Shown here: positions 220-38,576 of the stretch, piece after piece | How the letters are laid out: every line of letters starts with the position of its first letter | Position numbering within the stretch: the first letter of the stretch is position 1 | DNA from: Halosimplex salinum | Lineage (GTDB): Archaea > Halobacteriota > Halobacteria > Halobacteriales > Haloarculaceae | Direction of reading: 5' to 3' | NCBI RefSeq assembly: GCF_003730195.1 | Contig: NZ_QWGG01000003.1 | Location: 62,001 to 126,000, forward strand | Length of the DNA: 64,000 nt | Position numbers and translations under genes: made by a program | The notes under the pieces: generated by a model | What the model saw: the letters and a program-made list of their open reading frames with translations, nothing else | Database searches by the model: none | Told to the model about the DNA's origin: nothing

Positions 220-1545
220 CTACAGCGCGTCGAGGAAGGCGTCGACGGCGCCGCTCTCGGGGTGGCAGTGGCAGTAGGTGCCCAGCGTCCGGTACTCGGT
301 GAGGCCGTCCCGACTGTCGGCGATGCCGTCGCCGCGTTCCACGTCGAAGGCGAAGCGGGCGTCGGAAGCGGGGTCGGCTATGGAGTAGTGGAACTCGTGG
401 CCCCGCCGCGTTTCGCCGGTGTCCGCGGTGAGCGTGTCCGCCGTCGCGACGAGTTCGACGTGGTCGAGCGCCTGGTACCGGTCGTGCATCTGCACGTCCG
501 CGGGGAGGACACCGGCCATCTCGTGCGTGTCGCCGTCGACAGTCGTGAGCGACTCCGAGAGCGCCATCAGCCCGCCGCACTCCCCGAGGACGGGGAGGCC
601 GTCGGCGGCGCGGTCGGCGAGAGTGTCGAGCGCCGGGCTCTCCGCGAGCGCGGCGGCGTGGCGCTCTGGATACCCGCCGGGGAGGTAGACGCCGTCGCAG
701 TCGGGCAGGTCCTCGCCGTTCGCGGGTTCGAAGGTGACGAGTTCACCCCGGTCGCGGACCCGTTCGAGCGTCGCCGGGTAGACGAAACAGAACGCCTCGT
801 CGCGCGCGACGGCGATCCGGGGGCGAGCGGAGTCCTCGGTCGTAGTTCGTCCGGGCGCCTGCTCCGCGGAGTCCGGTTCCGGCTCTGGCGGCGTCCGAGC
901 CACCTCACGCAGACGATCCGTCCGGAGGTGTTCGGCTGCGGCGTCCAGCGCCTCGGCGTCGATCGGCGCCTCCTCGCCCATGTGGAGACCGAGGTGACGG
1001 TCGGGGATCGCCAGGTCGTCGCTGGGCGGGATCCGGCCGAAGTAGGTCATCCCCTCCGGGAGCGCGCCGCGGATCCCCTCGGCGTGGCGGCCGCCGTGGG
1101 CGCGCTGGGCGACGACGCCCGCCACGTCGACGTCCCGGCCAGCGGTTCGAGCGTACTCCCGGAAACCTAGCGCCGTCGCGGCGACGCTCTCCATCCCGGC
1201 GCTGGCGTCGACGACGAGCACGACGGGGAGGTCGAGCGTCTCGGCGACCATCGCGGTGCTGGAGCCGTCGCCGTCGTAGAGACCCATGACGCCCTCGACG
1301 ACGCAGATGTCGCCGTCACCGCGGTGGTAGTTGCGACGCAGACCGTCGGGGCCCTGCAACCAGCGGTCGAGCGTTCGGGAGGGGCGCCCCGCGACGCGTT
1401 CGTGGTGGCTCGGGTCGATGAAGTCAGGGCCGGCCTTCGCCGGCTGGACGGCGATCCCCTCCCGGTCGAGCGCCCGGACGGTCGCGAGCGTCGCCACGGT
1501 CTTCCCGACGCCCGAACTCGTCCCGCCGAGGACGAACCCATTCAC
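220..1545 (-). CDS. cbiA: Cobyrinate a,c-diamide synthase CbiA
   Basis: The enzyme amidates the a and c carboxylates of (cobalt-)cobyrinate using ATP and glutamine, a middle step of cobalamin ring synthesis in the cytoplasm. The 441-residue length fits the family. The N-terminal half is a P-loop amidoligase domain with GGTSSGVGKT at residues 7-16. The C-terminal half is a class I glutaminase domain with the nucleophile elbow GECGG (Cys323) and a terminal HCHPE segment (His426/His428). The ATG overlaps the upstream cbiE stop by four bases (ATGA), so the two are probably co-translated. A Pro/Glu/Asp-rich linker of about 25 residues separates the domains, as is common in haloarchaeal proteins. 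Confidence 0.95.
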   Translation of the reverse strand: MNGFVLGGTSSGVGKTVATLATVRALDREGIAVQPAKAGPDFIDPSHHERVAGRPSRTLDRWLQGPDGLRRNYHRGDGDICVVEGVMGLYDGDGSSTAMVAETLDLPVVLVVDASAGMESVAATALGFREYARTAGRDVDVAGVVAQRAHGGRHAEGIRGALPEGMTYFGRIPPSDDLAIPDRHLGLHMGEEAPIDAEALDAAAEHLRTDRLREVARTPPEPEPDSAEQAPGRTTTEDSARPRIAVARDEAFCFVYPATLERVRDRGELVTFEPANGEDLPDCDGVYLPGGYPERHAAALAESPALDTLADRAADGLPVLGECGGLMALSESLTTVDGDTHEMAGVLPADVQMHDRYQALDHVELVATADTLTADTGETRRGHEFHYSIADPASDARFAFDVERGDGIADSRDGLTEYRTLGTYCHCHPESGAVDAFLDAL

Positions 1546-32054: not shown

Positions 32055-32699
32055 TCACCGGTCGTCGTCCTCGCTGCCCGCGTCCTCGCTGCCCGCGTCG
32101 TCTGCATCGTCGCTGTCTGCGTCGTCCGCGTCGTCGCTCTCCAGTGACCGGTCGCGCGGCGACAGCGCCGCGTCGAAGACTGACTCGTCGTCGAGTCGAC
32201 GGAAACCGGCCGCGAGGTCTCGGCGCAGCGCGTCGAGCTGTCGCTCCACCCTGTCGAGCCGTTTGCGTTCCTCACCGTCGCTCTCGTCGGAGAGCGTGGC
32301 CCGCTCCTCCGCGAGTTCGTAGTACTCGTCGAGGCGCTGTCGGTATCGAGCCCGGGTCGCCAGCCACTCGACGGACTCGCGGACCGCCGACTCGTCGCGA
32401 CGGACGACCGCGTCGACGTCGTCCGATCTCGCCTCCGGTACCGCCGCGTGCTCGGCGAGAACCCCCACCTGACAGTCGTGGTCGTGCTCCCGGACGGCCG
32501 CGAGCAGCGGACCCAGCGGGCCGTCGGGGAGGTCGGAATCGACCACGACGACGTCGACTTCGGCGTCGAGGCTCTCGAGCAGGGCGTCGGTGCTGTAGGC
32601 GGTTCGAACGGTGCCGTCGTCGCGGAGCGCGGTCGCCAGGGCGTCGGTGGTGGCGGGCTCGGCACCGGCGACGACCACCAGATACCGAGCCGAGGTCAT
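32055..32699 (-). CDS. HalX-type response regulator
   Basis: A 214-residue haloarchaeal signalling protein. The receiver-like domain has the phospho-acceptor region VDVVVVDSDLPDGPLG. The HalX helical domain (YRQRLDEYYELAEERATLSD) follows. The last 30 residues are Asp/Ser-rich repeats (DDADDADSDDADDAGSEDAG). Both domains are haloarchaeal signalling modules; the target is unknown. The partner kinase is not adjacent. A strong TATA box lies at 32720-32727. Confidence 0.88.
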   Translation of the reverse strand: MTSARYLVVVAGAEPATTDALATALRDDGTVRTAYSTDALLESLDAEVDVVVVDSDLPDGPLGPLLAAVREHDHDCQVGVLAEHAAVPEARSDDVDAVVRRDESAVRESVEWLATRARYRQRLDEYYELAEERATLSDESDGEERKRLDRVERQLDALRRDLAAGFRRLDDESVFDAALSPRDRSLESDDADDADSDDADDAGSEDAGSEDDDR

Positions 32700-32758: not shown

Positions 32759-33430
32759 TCACTGACCGCGGTGGAACCCGGACCGGCCGCGGTCGGCGTG
32801 GACGACCGCGTCACAGACGATCCGGAAGGTCTCTATCGTCTCCTGGTCGTGAGCGGCGGGGTCGAGGTGGAAGAACGCGGTGCCCTCGACCCGGCGGATG
32901 ACCTCCCCGAGCGTGTAGACGAACTTGAACGCGGTCTGGTCGTCGACGTGTTGAAGCATCCCCGTCAGCGAGTGGATCGCGATACCGACGCGGTCGTCGG
33001 TCTCGTCGGCGCGCTGGACCACGTCGCTGATCCGTCGGCCCAGCGACTCCAGGTCGGTCGGATCGGAGACGCGCTCGACGGCGCCCGACGGGGCGCTCGA
33101 CACACTCGCCGCCGAACGCGTGTCACCGTCGACGTCGACGCACGTGACCGGTTTCGGTTCCCCTGTCGAGGTCCGGTCCCACATCGAGAGCCAGTCGGCC
33201 GCCGACCCGGTGACGGTCACCGCGACGACTCGGTCGAGACGACCGCTTCTCCCGCGGAGCGCCCGGGCACAGGCGTCCATCGAGCGGTCCTGCACGTTCG
33301 GAGCCAGCAGTAACACCGTCGTCGCACCGTCGATCTCCGACGCTCTGTCGGTCCCCGTGCCCACTACCGACACCCCCGGTGTGCATCTCTCGACATCTAT
33401 CGGTACCTCGACTACGGACCCACACGACAA
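32759..33430 (-). CDS. DUF7504-like RecA/KaiC-fold protein
   Basis: A 223-residue protein resembling haloarchaeal DUF7504 proteins, RecA/KaiC-like folds that have lost the nucleotide-binding loop. The strand TVLLLAPN is followed by VQDRSMDACARAL where a Walker A would be. Later comes VGIAIHSLTGMLQHVDDQTAFKFVYTL and TAFFHLDPAAHDQETIETF. No catalytic residues are obvious. It is divergent from the DUF7503 peptide gene with about 190 bp between them, so the two may share control. Confidence 0.78.
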   Translation of the reverse strand: MSCGSVVEVPIDVERCTPGVSVVGTGTDRASEIDGATTVLLLAPNVQDRSMDACARALRGRSGRLDRVVAVTVTGSAADWLSMWDRTSTGEPKPVTCVDVDGDTRSAASVSSAPSGAVERVSDPTDLESLGRRISDVVQRADETDDRVGIAIHSLTGMLQHVDDQTAFKFVYTLGEVIRRVEGTAFFHLDPAAHDQETIETFRIVCDAVVHADRGRSGFHRGQ

Positions 33431-33560
33431 TTAGTGTTATCGTTCTCTGACATCCGTCGCTGTCGGGCGATTCCGTCCACCCAGGTTCGAGATGGCGACG
33501 GTGACGGCCTGAGATACCCATTCTATTCTATCCCCCGTAGATACTGATAATACAACGGTT

Positions 33561-33587
33561 AATTTATCTCTAACTTTTAGATAAATT
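33561..33587 (+). promoter_or_regulatory. AT-rich dyad overlapping the DUF7503 promoter
   Basis: AATTTATCT (33561-33569) and AGATAAATT (33579-33587) are perfect inverted arms around a 9-nt centre, in the most AT-rich stretch of the window. The dyad ends 31 bases before the ATG and covers the expected TATA position. A dimeric regulator bound here would block or direct the promoter. Confidence 0.6.
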
Positions 33588-33618
33588 CAATCACGAACCG
33601 CCTGAATAAACAGTTGCA

Positions 33619-33759
33619 ATGAGCCAAGAATCAGCTCAAGTCCGCGAATTCCTCGAAGAGAACCCCAAATGGATCGGCGCCCTGTTCACCGCGATGCTCC
33701 TGCTCTCGCAGGCAGGGACGGTGGCGGCCGGGAGTGCGAACACGCTCACCGGTCCGTAG
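33619..33759 (+). CDS. 46-residue DUF7503-like hydrophobic peptide
   Basis: A small protein starting MSQESAQVREFLEENPKWIG, then one hydrophobic stretch of about 23 residues (GALFTAMLLLSQAGTVAAGS) and a short tail NTLTGP. It matches the haloarchaeal DUF7503 pattern, which has no known function. The polar, amphipathic N-terminal helix plus single span resembles a membrane peptide. Its stop codon ends two bases from the stop of the convergent CHAT-like gene, so their 3' transcripts probably overlap. Its promoter contains a perfect AT-rich dyad. Confidence 0.8.
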   Translation: MSQESAQVREFLEENPKWIGALFTAMLLLSQAGTVAAGSANTLTGP

Positions 33760-33761
33760 AA

Positions 33762-35879
33762 TTAGATTTCAGAAACGTTACTGCTCCACCGTAACGAACC
33801 GTCGAAGTCGACGGGAAGGTCTTGTTTGTGGATGAATTCGAGGAGTTTCTGCTTCGATAGAACATAATCCTCCATGGTCCCCGAATTGAGGTAGAATCGA
33901 TCTATCCCCTGAATCTGGGGAGAGAGTATTGCACCCATCGGGGACGAGAGTGTCGGATACCCGAATATGTTCACCTCGAACTCGTCGTCATCGCGCTCGT
34001 CTACGATGACCCGATGCGGCGTTCCCGACTGGTTCTCCACGATCGACGCACTCGCGTCGCCGACGACGAGGTAGTGGTGGCCGATCTGTTCGTACTCCTT
34101 GATGATCGACACCGTCGCGGCGAGCGAGAACCCCTGATTGAGGAGTTTCGCGGCCGTCCGGCCGACGGATGTCGCCGCTTCGTTGACGATGTCGGTCACC
34201 GTCGCGATGCCGGCCATCGCGCCGGCGTCGACGAGTCCGCGGCCTTGCTCGTAGGAGTCACAGGCGTTGAGCAGAAACGCGCTAACGTTCACGTCCGAGA
34301 GGTGGCGCGTGTCGAGGTAGCCGTCCGTACAGCGGATCCCCTCTTCGTCGACGTGGCCGATGTAGTGCAGGAAATCGACCTCGGACTGGAGCACCTCGCG
34401 CATCTCCATCGTCCCCAACTGGTCCTGGAAGGAGATGTCGAACTCGATCCAGTCGCGGGTACCGTATATCTCCGAAACGACGTTCTCGTCGGTCATCTCC
34501 TCGTCGTTACAGACGACGGCCACTCGGATCTGAGGATCGGTCGACGGTTCGAAGTCGAGTCGGCGGTAGTAGGCGTCGACGGTCATCTTGCTCGCGCCGA
34601 CGGGTAATCCCTCGCCGACGTACGCCTGCTCGATACTGTCGGCCGGTTCCGGGCGGAAGATGTCGGTGTCCGTCGTCGAGGTGGAAGCGCGCGTCGGCCC
34701 GGCGCGGGTGCTCCGGCGGAGCGCCTGCGGGTTGTTTCGGAAGAACGACTCGACCTCTTCGGAGAGGTCGGCCAGCGCCTCCTCGTCCATGGAGCGCACC
34801 CCGGGACAGCGCACTATCGCGAGTTCGTTCGCGAGGAAGGGGAGCGCACTGACGTTCGTCGCCTCGGGCCGCACGTCGGCCGTCAGTTTCCACTTGGGGA
34901 CGACCTCCGAGACCGAGTCGTAGGGGAGTTCGAGATACGTCCGCAGTTGCTCGGGCAACGACTGTTCGTAGACGGCCGCGAAGTCGAGGTCGAGGCGTGT
35001 TTCGAGCTCTGTCCGTTCGTAGAGGTCAACTCCGTAGTACCCCTCCGTTCGGGTCACGCAGTCGAGGAGGAGAGTCTGTTTCAACACGCGGGCGACTTCC
35101 GGTTCGAACCCGTCGTCGCCGTCCAGCGGGTACGACCACTCGTCGGTTGCGATCCGGGGGGCCGGACCGGATTCGAGCGTGGCGCCGAGATAGTACACCA
35201 GCGGGACGACCGGATAGATGTACTCCTCGAACGGCGGAACTTCGATGGTGACTCCCGTGTCCGGCGGTTCGATGGCCTCCGGTACGGAGAGTTCGTCGCC
35301 CAGCTCGACGAGCGGTGGATGTCCGCGCAGCGACGGGAAGGACCGCTCGCAACTCGTCGTCTTCAGCGCGGACCCGAGCGTCGAGAGGGCGGCCATCAGG
35401 TCGTCGGCGCTCTCGGTCGTCGTCACGGTGGCCGCCGGCTGTTCGTGGACGGAACGCGCGCCGACGTGCAGGTGGTCCGTCTCCGAGAACGAGAGTCGGA
35501 CGCTGTCTTCCATCGAGGAGACGTCGATTCCGCCGTCGATAGCGAACTGTAGCTTCACCTGCGTCGTCGCCAGTTCGACGTTGTATCTCCCCGGCGGGAC
35601 GCTCACGGACTCCTGGTCCGTGACTTCGGCGACGGTGTTCCCCTCCTCGTCGCGGATCCACAGCGGGACGAAGTAGGGCGTCTCGACCGTGTCCGTCCAC
35701 ACGGTCGCGCCGGTGTCGGCCGGGAAGTAGAACCGCTCGGTGTCGCAGTCGGAGACCGTCGGACGCTCGGGTGTCAGGAGGGCGAACTGCGTCTCCTGGA
35801 TCGGGTCGACGACCTGCACGCCGTCGCGCGTCGGGTGGCGGCGGATCTGCGGTCTGGTCGCGTCCGGATCTATATTCAT
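33762..35879 (-). CDS. CHAT-like (caspase-fold) protease, haloarchaeal
   Basis: A 705-residue protein. The C-terminal part (about 430-625) reads as a CHAT/caspase-like cysteine protease. The histidine lies in FLHYIGHVDEEG (His509) and the cysteine in AFLLNACDSYEQGRGLVDAG (Cys540), the usual H...C dyad after strands beta3 and beta4. ATVTDIVNEAATSVGRTAAKLL follows as in CHAT folds. The first 345 residues form a beta-rich region with no family I can name. A Ser/Thr/Arg-rich linker (388-412) joins the parts and could be a processing site. It converges on the DUF7503 gene. Confidence 0.82.
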   Translation of the reverse strand: MNIDPDATRPQIRRHPTRDGVQVVDPIQETQFALLTPERPTVSDCDTERFYFPADTGATVWTDTVETPYFVPLWIRDEEGNTVAEVTDQESVSVPPGRYNVELATTQVKLQFAIDGGIDVSSMEDSVRLSFSETDHLHVGARSVHEQPAATVTTTESADDLMAALSTLGSALKTTSCERSFPSLRGHPPLVELGDELSVPEAIEPPDTGVTIEVPPFEEYIYPVVPLVYYLGATLESGPAPRIATDEWSYPLDGDDGFEPEVARVLKQTLLLDCVTRTEGYYGVDLYERTELETRLDLDFAAVYEQSLPEQLRTYLELPYDSVSEVVPKWKLTADVRPEATNVSALPFLANELAIVRCPGVRSMDEEALADLSEEVESFFRNNPQALRRSTRAGPTRASTSTTDTDIFRPEPADSIEQAYVGEGLPVGASKMTVDAYYRRLDFEPSTDPQIRVAVVCNDEEMTDENVVSEIYGTRDWIEFDISFQDQLGTMEMREVLQSEVDFLHYIGHVDEEGIRCTDGYLDTRHLSDVNVSAFLLNACDSYEQGRGLVDAGAMAGIATVTDIVNEAATSVGRTAAKLLNQGFSLAATVSIIKEYEQIGHHYLVVGDASASIVENQSGTPHRVIVDERDDDEFEVNIFGYPTLSSPMGAILSPQIQGIDRFYLNSGTMEDYVLSKQKLLEFIHKQDLPVDFDGSLRWSSNVSEI

Positions 35880-35973
35880 GCTGTGAGAGGGCCTCCGTCC
35901 GGCCTCGTCCAGGGCTGCGATGGGTCCCGTGCCCGTTCCTGTGCGAGTGAGTACAGGTGGGAACGCAGTGCGG

Positions 35974-35985
35974 AGAAAAAAGCTT
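35974..35985 (-). terminator. T6 terminator after metX
   Basis: AAGCTTTTTTCTCC on the minus strand, about 20 bases past the metX stop, ends the metY-metX operon. Confidence 0.5.
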
Positions 35986-36003
35986 GTTGGCCCGGCGACA
36001 CTG

Positions 36004-37215
36004 TCAGTCGGAGAACAGGCTGGTGTGGACGGGGGCGAACGAGGGGTCGTCGTCCTCGGGCGGTTCGTCCGTGTCGGTGACCGCCGTTCCCTCGACGCCG
36101 TCGGTCAGGAAGTCCGCGAGCGGCGGGCCGACGTTCTCCGGTTCGACGAGGAACGCGTCGTGGCCGTGGTCGGACTCGACGAGGTGGTGGGCCGAGCGGA
36201 CGTCCGCGCCGCGCAGGGAGTCGGCCAGTTCCTCGGCCTGCGCGGGGGTGAAGTGCCAGTCACCGGTGAACGACATGACGAGCGCCTCGCCGTCGAACGC
36301 CGCGAGCGCGTTCTCGTCGGACTCGAAGCCCGCCGAGAGGTCGTAGTTGTCCATCGCGCGCGTCAGGTAGAGATACGAGTTGGCGTCGAAGCGCTCGACG
36401 AACGACTCGGCGTTGTAATCGAGGTACGACTCGACGTCCCGGTACGGGAAGAAGCCCGCCGCGGGGTCGGTCGGGAACGAGCGTGCGGCGTCGCGACCGG
36501 CGGCGCGGCGGCCGAACTTCTGTTCCATGGAGGCCTTCGAGAGGTACATGACGTGACCGATCTGTCGCGCGAGGGCGAGGCCGTCGTCGGGGCCGGGGCC
36601 GTCGCCGTAGTAGTCACCGCCTTGCCAGTCGGTGTCGGTGGTGATAGCGCGGCGCGCGATGGCGTCGAGGGCGAGACACTGCACGTCGAGGCGCGCGGCG
36701 GCGGCGATGGGGACGATCCGCTCGACGTGATCGGGGTGCTGTTTGGCCCACTCGAGGACGTTCATGCCGCCGACGCTCCCGCCGACGACGGCGTGGAGGT
36801 GCGGGATGCCGAGTTCGTCCAGCAGTTGGCGCTGTGCGTTCGTCCAGTCGGTGACGGTGACCGCGGGGAAGTCCGTGCCGTAGGGGTCGCCCGTCTCGGG
36901 GTTCTCGCTGGCGGGGCCGGTCGTGCCGTAACAGGAGCCGGGGACGTTGGCACAGAGGACGTAGTACTCGCGGGTGTCGATGGCCTTCCCGGGACCGACG
37001 ATGTCGTCCCACCAGGCGCGGGCCTGGCCGTCGGTCTCCTGATCGGGGTGGCGGCCGGCGACGTGAGCGCTCCCGGTGAGCGCGTGGCAGACGAGGACGG
37101 CGTTGTCGCCGGTGAACTCCCCGTAGGCCTCGTAGGAGACCTCGAGTTCGGGGATCGAGCGACCGCACTCGAACTCGAACTCGCCGAGCGAGACCGAGCC
37201 GCGTTCGATCTCCAT
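36004..37215 (-). CDS. metX: Homoserine O-acetyltransferase MetX
   Basis: Transfers acetyl from acetyl-CoA to homoserine, opening the methionine branch. An alpha/beta hydrolase fold of 403 residues. The nucleophile elbow is [12 protein letters not shown] (Ser147). The histidine is in [33 protein letters not shown] and [10 protein letters not shown] are standard MetX motifs. Its ATG begins right after the metY stop, with no gap, so the two are co-transcribed and probably co-translated. The C-terminus adds an acidic tail of about 30 residues. Confidence 0.95.
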
Positions 37216-38541
37216 CTACGAGTCACCCGCGCTGTCGGTCCCGCTCTCCGCGGCCGCGTTCGCGCGCTCGATCGCCCCGTCGACGTCCGCGAGGATGTCC
37301 GCGGCGTCCTCGATGCCGACCGAGAGGCGCACGAGGTCGGGCGTGACGCCGCTGGCGTGCTGTTCTTCCTCGGAGAGCTGCGCGTGGGTCGTGCTCGCGG
37401 GGTGGATGACGAGCGTCTTCGCGTCGCCGATGTTGGCGAGGAACTGCGCGAGGTCGGTCTCCTCGCAGAAGCGCTTGCCCGCCTCGAACCCCTCGACGAG
37501 CCCGAAGGCGATCATCCCGCCGAAGCCGCCGTCGAGGTACTCGGCGGCGTGGTCGTGGGTCTCGTGCGAGTCGAGACCCGGGTAGGTGACCCACTCGACG
37601 CCGGGGTGGTCGGCGAGGAACTCGGCGACGGTCTGTGCGTTCTCGCAGTGGCGCTCCATGCGAAGGGAGAGCGTCTCCGTGCCCTGCAGGGTCGCCCAGG
37701 CGTCGAACGGTTTCTGTCCGTCGCCGAGCGAGCGGACGCCGCGCTGGCGGGCGGCCATCGCGAAGGCCCGGTCGCCGAACTGCTCGGCGAAGGTGACGCC
37801 GTCGAAGGCGTCGTTGGGCGCGCCCAGTTCGGGGAACTTCTCGGGGTACTCCGTCCAGGGGAACGACCCGCCGTCGACGAGGACGCCGCCGACGGTGGTG
37901 CCCGAGCCGTGGATCCACTTCGTCGTCGACTCCCAGACGATGTCCGCGCCGTGGTCGAGCGGGTTGCAGAGCGCGGGGGTGCCGAAGGTGTTGTCGACGA
38001 AGACCGGGACGCCCCGCTCGTGGGCGATCTCGGCGATCTCCTCCATCGGGGGCGTGACGAGCGAGGGGTTCCCGATAGTCTCGTAGTGGACGTAGGCGGT
38101 GTGTTCGTCGATGGCCTCGGCGTAGGCGTCGGGGTCGAGCGTGTCGACGAAGCGCGTCTCGATGCCGCGGCGACCGCCCATGTTCGAGAGATAGGAGTGG
38201 GTGCCGCCGTAGATAGAGGAGGCGGTGACGACGTTGTCGCCGACGCTGGCGAGGATCGAGGTGGCCGCGTCGAGGGCCGCCATTCCCGAGCCGGTGGCGA
38301 CTGCCGCGGTTCCGTTCTCGAGCGAGGCGAGACGTCGTTCGAGCGTCGAGACGGTCGGGTTGTCGAACCGCGAGTAGACGTTCCCGCCGTCGTCGAGCGC
38401 GTACCGGTCGGCCGCGGTGTCCGCGTCCTCGAAGACGTACGACGTCGTCTGGTAGATCGGCGGGGCGCGAGCCCCTGTCGCCGGATCGACGTCCTGTCCG
38501 GCGTGGACGCACCGCGTCCCGAAGGCGTACGGATCGGTCAT
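37216..38541 (-). CDS. metY: O-acetylhomoserine sulfhydrylase MetY
   Basis: A PLP enzyme that replaces the acetyl group of O-acetylhomoserine with sulfide to give homocysteine. 441 residues of the Cys/Met-metabolism PLP family. YSRFDNPTVSTLERRLA and TGSGMAALDAAT are present, and the Schiff-base lysine is Lys208 in ESTTKWIHGSGT. The length and the loop PLDHGADIVWES favour MetY over cystathionine gamma-synthase. The second ATG (MTDPYAFG) is chosen because a TATA box lies 27-35 bases upstream. metX follows directly, which fits the shared intermediate. Confidence 0.95.
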   Translation of the reverse strand: MTDPYAFGTRCVHAGQDVDPATGARAPPIYQTTSYVFEDADTAADRYALDDGGNVYSRFDNPTVSTLERRLASLENGTAAVATGSGMAALDAATSILASVGDNVVTASSIYGGTHSYLSNMGGRRGIETRFVDTLDPDAYAEAIDEHTAYVHYETIGNPSLVTPPMEEIAEIAHERGVPVFVDNTFGTPALCNPLDHGADIVWESTTKWIHGSGTTVGGVLVDGGSFPWTEYPEKFPELGAPNDAFDGVTFAEQFGDRAFAMAARQRGVRSLGDGQKPFDAWATLQGTETLSLRMERHCENAQTVAEFLADHPGVEWVTYPGLDSHETHDHAAEYLDGGFGGMIAFGLVEGFEAGKRFCEETDLAQFLANIGDAKTLVIHPASTTHAQLSEEEQHASGVTPDLVRLSVGIEDAADILADVDGAIERANAAAESGTDSAGDS

Positions 38542-38567
38542 GTGTGTCGTGCATATATCTCCAAACA

Positions 38568-38576
38568 TCTATAACC
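38568..38576 (-). promoter_or_regulatory. TATA box of the metY-metX operon
   Basis: GGTTATAGATGT on the minus strand, centred about 30 bases before the ATG at 38541, fits a leaderless transcript and supports the shorter start. Confidence 0.55.

Follow-up and report, generated by a model that had tools for sequence, protein, structure and literature searches.

The window, a 64,000-nucleotide stretch of the Halosimplex salinum genome, contains a pair of convergent genes (Table 1), one encoding a large CHAT-like protein (P0001) and the other a small DUF7503 peptide (P0002), whose stop codons are separated by just 2 bases (33760-33761). A DUF7504 protein (P0004) is encoded on the other side of the peptide gene. 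P0002 and P0004 are members of Pfam families that have no assigned function, matching their profiles with E values of 2.6e-19 (69 bits, cut-off 27) and 5.3e-31 (108.9 bits, cut-off 27) respectively, and the P0004 sequence shows no P-loop (GxxxxGK[ST]). The genes, coordinates and architecture described in an earlier sequence-only reading of this DNA are all re-found here, as is its account of a DUF7504 protein that lacks a P-loop. The HalX-like gene beyond P0004 is possibly part of a wider signalling neighbourhood. An 884-residue open reading frame at 35920-38574 (+) is treated as spurious, being antisense to a homoserine-acetyltransferase-like gene and without a Pfam family match.

Table 1. 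Features of the convergent gene pair and its surroundings (positions are those of the window, unless given as residues).
Feature	Position	Strand	Remarks
CHAT-like clan CD protein P0001, 705 aa (clan assignment from the model)	33762-35879	-	LHYIGH (H509) and LLNACDSY (C540)
Parts of P0001	residues ~8-143; ~150-330; 329-615; 622-705		beta-rich; alpha/beta; caspase/gingipain-like, with H509 and C540; C-terminal, beta-rich
DUF7503 peptide P0002, 46 aa	33619-33759	+	PF24335; leader with hydrophobic segment, A-x-A-like site, tail GSANTLTGP, GP end
DUF7504 protein P0004	32759-33430	-	PF24336; same strand as the CHAT gene, divergent from the peptide gene
Promoter region of the peptide gene, AT-rich	33561-33618	+	TATA-like AGATAAATT at 33579-33587
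Response-regulator/HalX-like protein	32055-32699	-	scores under Pfam cut-offs; beyond DUF7504, possibly degenerate

The AlphaFold2 model of P0001, for which the input was 99 homologues that all come from loci collected in the present analysis, has a mean pLDDT of 92. In a comparison with known structures using Foldseek and VIA-align, gingipain R aligns with residues 329-646 (Z 20.2, 245 residues at 3.0 A) and SAVED-CHAT with residues 445-615 (Z 17.8, 168 residues at 2.5 A), while separase (Z 17.0), Csx29 (Z 13.7) and caspase-3 match over similar ranges. H509 of the model directly follows the strand at 501-507 and C540 follows the strand at 532-538, which are the clan CD positions, and both are invariant in all 99 aligned sequences, together with N458, H505, C517, D519 and N538. 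Because of the structural matches, the location of H509 and C540 after successive strands and the invariance of both, the modelled catalytic domain is assigned to clan CD, which supports the CHAT-type His509/Cys540 dyad named in the sequence-only reading. P0001 is presumably an active protease. The N-terminal 329 residues alone (pLDDT 95) give weak beta-sandwich matches, the best of them to the YidC periplasmic domain (Z 7.3), and no signal peptide or membrane segment is apparent in the protein.

A Pfam scan of P0001 finds no match at E <= 1, CHAT (PF12770, curated cut-off 24 bits) and TPR included, and an NCBIfam scan finds none at E <= 0.1. PF12770 has no match in the window's own genome, and the one score given by a distant homologue, L046, is 18.8 bits (E 0.0012), which is under the cut-off; sequence searches of the PDB with P0001 and with profile A2 give no significant match. 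Plasmid homologues mostly carry the annotation of hypothetical protein, with a single entry labelled caspase family and another labelled CHAT domain-containing.

Homologues of P0001 are present in 365 of the 391 Halobacteria genomes sampled (about 93%) and in 78 of 86 genera, usually with two per genome. DUF7503 is found in 335 Halobacteria genomes, all of them CHAT-positive, and is absent from all 26 CHAT-negative genomes (Fisher p 2.5e-25, a value that ignores relatedness). At the level of individual genes, a convergent small open reading frame ending in Gly-Pro-stop (GP) lies beside 120 of 139 CHAT genes, and the stop codons fall within -20 to +10 bases in 96 of these 120 pairs, so that most overlap or nearly touch. 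A later count, with redundancy removed and close CHAT genes separated from distant ones, gives 123 close genes, of which 115 have a GP-ending convergent reading frame, six have a DUF7503-like peptide without GP and two have none; the control is 6 of 407 other genes from the same loci, two of those six being CHAT relatives. The pairing of CHAT gene and peptide is non-random and far beyond chance, and was not found described in the literature on DUF7504, haloarchaeal CHAT proteins and archaeal peptide pheromones.

Close CHAT genes that are without DUF7503 have another GP-ending peptide instead. These are arrays of tails in six Haloplanus genomes and, in two genomes of genus g76, GP-ending peptides of the type MSLIETARRWAQNNPQ...TTTTPGP (MSLIETARRW...TTTTPGP) in DUF7503's place, and the Pfam DUF7503 profile covers neither of them. 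The other 22 CHAT-positive, DUF7503-negative genomes, not every one of which was opened, give weaker CHAT matches only. GP is lost from six DUF7503-like peptides whose CHAT partners are kept (L111, L134, L135, L138, L148 and L183), and the five of these partners that are present in alignment A2 retain His and Cys. Many distant CHAT paralogues have no peptide partner, and the same is true of the second Halosimplex copy (L158:6197-8338 (+), on contig C11 of the same genome), which is 41% identical to P0001 and has no convergent GP peptide. Outside Halobacteria, among the genomes sampled in the phylum, a CHAT match is found in just four, all from one family (L178-L181), with no convincing GP peptide beside any of them and with the catalytic Cys motif lost in L178.

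Among the distant CHAT loci, we note that L036, L190 and L191 have convergent short reading frames with unrelated starts and the common end LDG[SG]SSPYTGP, and that L035 and L047 have the end RVSTYGGP in common. Some distant paralogues adjoin a TbsP-type transcription regulator (PF19138, PF23336), for example L044:3499-4320 (+).

The peptides are built to a common plan: a conserved leader that contains a single hydrophobic segment is followed by an A-x-A-like site, some seven hypervariable residues and the GP end. In an alignment of 105 distinct single-copy peptides, which were picked for their GP end, such that the GP count is circular there and independent support comes from the 115 of 123 close genes, the next most constant features after GP are HP[KR], a Gly, the Phe that opens the hydrophobic segment, and the small residues of the A-x-A-like site (99% at -12 and -10). 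Among 111 close peptide pairs the difference is 52% at positions -9 to -3, as against 9% in HPxxxG, 11% in the hydrophobic segment and 0% in GP. The pN/pS of the tail (0.49) is not unique, since the N-terminal region varies too (28%) with a pN/pS of 0.51. The sequence-only reading had correctly given the peptide 46 residues and one hydrophobic segment, and had overlooked the invariant GP at the C terminus, the hypervariability of the tail and its multiplication in arrays. A CxxC pair is seen in some GP tails (L024 CAKCGVRGP, L094 CPTCTATGP and L105 CARCATTGP), which suggests a disulphide or metal-binding variant.

Across the peptide genes a TATA-like AT peak lies at -38 to -28 of the ATG, a position that fits an archaeal promoter and a short leader. 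Halosimplex has a perfect 9-bp inverted repeat, AATTTATCT-N9-AGATAAATT, at 33561-33587, over the presumed TATA box, and this is not general across genera; the idea that peptide genes in general are preceded by a conserved palindromic operator was rejected (5.95 observed vs 5.63 in shuffles).

In Haloplanus, two genomes retain the membrane form of the peptide (MSESDSGTVATYLKNNPRMMGVLFTMLLLLSQAGTVAAGNSGAISGP), and in their relatives the start MSESDSGTVA is kept and the remainder consists of 2-13 copies of the tail (for example TADGNSGGISGP), the array ending in GP-stop and having no leader, hydrophobic segment or export signal. Variation between the repeat units is mostly synonymous (pS 0.20-0.58, pN 0-0.056), and in the L156 array an identical 12-mer is encoded by 13 different DNA units. 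The array and single-copy states have been switched at least twice within the genus. Because the array genes have lost the membrane segment and multiplied the tail, and the repeats vary mostly synonymously, these sequences show that selection acts to keep the GP-ending tail, and not the membrane segment. Should function depend on a free GP end, the inner copies would require a cut after the proline, for which the adjacent peptidase is an economical candidate.

Of 80 named loci, 52 have DUF7504 beside the CHAT gene; it is on the CHAT strand in 52 of 53 cases, lying either directly upstream of the CHAT gene (33) or just past the peptide gene (14). The chance expectation for DUF7504 per 14-kb locus is about 3% (about 11 genes in the 5.07 Mb genome of the window). 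The association of the caspase-fold protein with both the peptide and DUF7504, as proposed from the sequence, is non-random. HalX response regulators are a second recurrent neighbour, and one adjoins a Haloplanus pair.

The interpretation we favour, with middling confidence, is that of a dedicated pair, in which a propeptide is matched to a caspase-fold partner and with which DUF7504 is associated. The partner would recognise the propeptide by its GP end and most likely cleave it, or else be switched by it. The small gene would encode a propeptide of conserved hydrophobic leader and short tail, the functional part being the free Gly-Pro end and the adjoining variable residues, and the CHAT-like protein would be a cytoplasmic cysteine peptidase and the cognate partner of that tail. 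Most likely it would cleave the peptide (in Haloplanus cutting the arrays after each GP), or else the peptide would switch it, and the output would probably be peptide-based regulation or signalling by way of the sensor-like DUF7504 and the response-regulator neighbours. We infer the proteolytic activity, the role of the peptide as substrate or ligand, and the role in signalling. Substrate or partner of the protease is also what the sequence-only reading had suggested, and is still the role that we favour for the peptide, but its further suggestion of a pure membrane effector is at odds with the Haloplanus arrays, in which the tail is repeated and no hydrophobic segment is left. P0001 resembles other clan CD and CHAT peptidases (gingipain C25, separase C50, Csx29, SAVED-CHAT) in its caspase-like fold and invariant strand-end His and Cys, and differs from them in having no Pfam CHAT match, its own N- and C-terminal domains and a GP-ended propeptide as partner.

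The main difficulty for the dedicated pair is one of topology. The placement of lysine and arginine and the leader predict that the single-copy tail is outside the cell, whereas P0001, with no export features, looks cytoplasmic, so that the two could meet only through re-import, through an inverted topology or by acting before export takes place. Single-copy peptides, which have a terminal GP as made, require no cut at that point, which speaks against a role in cutting there, and clan CD enzymes are not known to cut after proline. The persistence of CHAT partners beside the six GP-less peptides, the orphan second Halosimplex copy and the partnerless distant paralogues also count against such a pair.

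A different reading is a receptor of the RRNPP kind: signal peptidase would free a peptide of about nine residues outside the cell, which would return to the cytoplasm by re-import. There the CHAT protein would serve as its intracellular receptor and, on binding it, would direct protease activity at other targets, the peptide not being processed by the CHAT protein. The conserved leader, A-x-A-like site, hypervariable core and invariant end resemble those of pheromone precursors, and RRNPP systems are defined by adjacent propeptide and receptor genes (PMC10075063); the likeness extends to the small size of the propeptide, to its make-up of leader and short core, and to the cytoplasmic partner. 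The present pairs differ in being archaeal and convergent, in the invariant GP, in the leaderless Haloplanus arrays and in having a caspase-fold partner in place of a TPR protein, Pfam finding no TPR in P0001 and its modelled fold being beta-rich and caspase-like. An extracellular pheromone is weakened because the Haloplanus arrays have no export signal or hydrophobic segment and the peptide would stay unexported there; no peptide-binding domain is recognised either, and we regard this reading as unlikely. In another reading the peptide is an inhibitor or tether: its GP tail would occupy the CHAT active site in the manner of a cleavage product and keep the protease inactive. In most species this would happen at the membrane, and in Haloplanus through a multivalent soluble decoy; the protease would be set free once the peptide is removed. 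Nearly all peptides have a free C-terminal GP, the loss of the membrane segment with multiplication of the motif fits a decoy, and convergent genes could allow opposed expression. Only the last copy of an array has a free GP end, however, hypervariable tails would be unusual for an active-site inhibitor unless they co-evolve, and the orphan second Halosimplex copy would be uninhibited, and we think inhibition improbable.

The sequence-only reading had suggested a death or defence module, in which the CHAT protein would act as executioner and, by cleavage, would free the peptide as an effector that damages membranes. CHAT proteases do act in defence, and both Csx29-Csx30 and SAVED-CHAT are among the structural matches; Csx29-Csx30 (Craspase) is similar in that a CHAT protease has a dedicated protein partner gene, although no CRISPR link is seen here and the partner is a peptide of 40-60 residues and not a large protein. 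A specialised module of this type is disfavoured, and its chances seem slight, because the CHAT protein is near-universal, a PADLOC 2.0.0 scan of the four locus proteins gives no defence-model match at E <= 1, and searches of phage and viral collections found no CHAT homologues; Haloplanus, moreover, dispenses with the membrane segment. Antisense coupling alone, with mutual transcript silencing keeping the genes convergent and the peptide sequence mattering little, would suit the closeness of the stop codons, but the invariant GP, the conserved HPxxxG and the excess of pS over pN in the arrays reflect strong constraint on the protein, and we find this very hard to credit.

The dedicated pair may then be an unrecognised peptide-signalling or protease-control pair, arranged head-on in nearly all salt-loving archaea. 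We tentatively go further, to a proposal that is doubtful as it stands: a near-universal haloarchaeal peptide signalling in which a caspase-fold protease, dedicated to this task, would mature or sense species-variable GP peptides made as a leader precursor or, in Haloplanus, as a multi-copy polyprotein. Haloferax volcanii has secreted signals that control shape and motility, of as yet unknown chemistry (PMC12240190), and a link with the present locus is at most possible because that signal is a small molecule that survives proteinase K; the Haloferax hypermotility gene HVO_2248, which is without domains (PMC7824242), was dropped from consideration as it is in only about a third of Halobacteria. 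The same organism has strong caspase-like activity with no caspase gene homologue known (PMC3615174), and the connection to this orphan activity is a lead and not a finding. DUF7503 is present in the H. volcanii genome, and tails of the GNTGIIYGP type occur in relatives of Haloferax. If the proposal is true, the locus would provide a candidate gene for the Haloferax activity and, as far as we have found, the first case of peptide-based signalling to be described in archaea. A caspase-fold protein of 700 residues, present in about 93% of sampled Halobacteria with a strict peptide partner and no matching family model, points to a basic process that annotation has missed.
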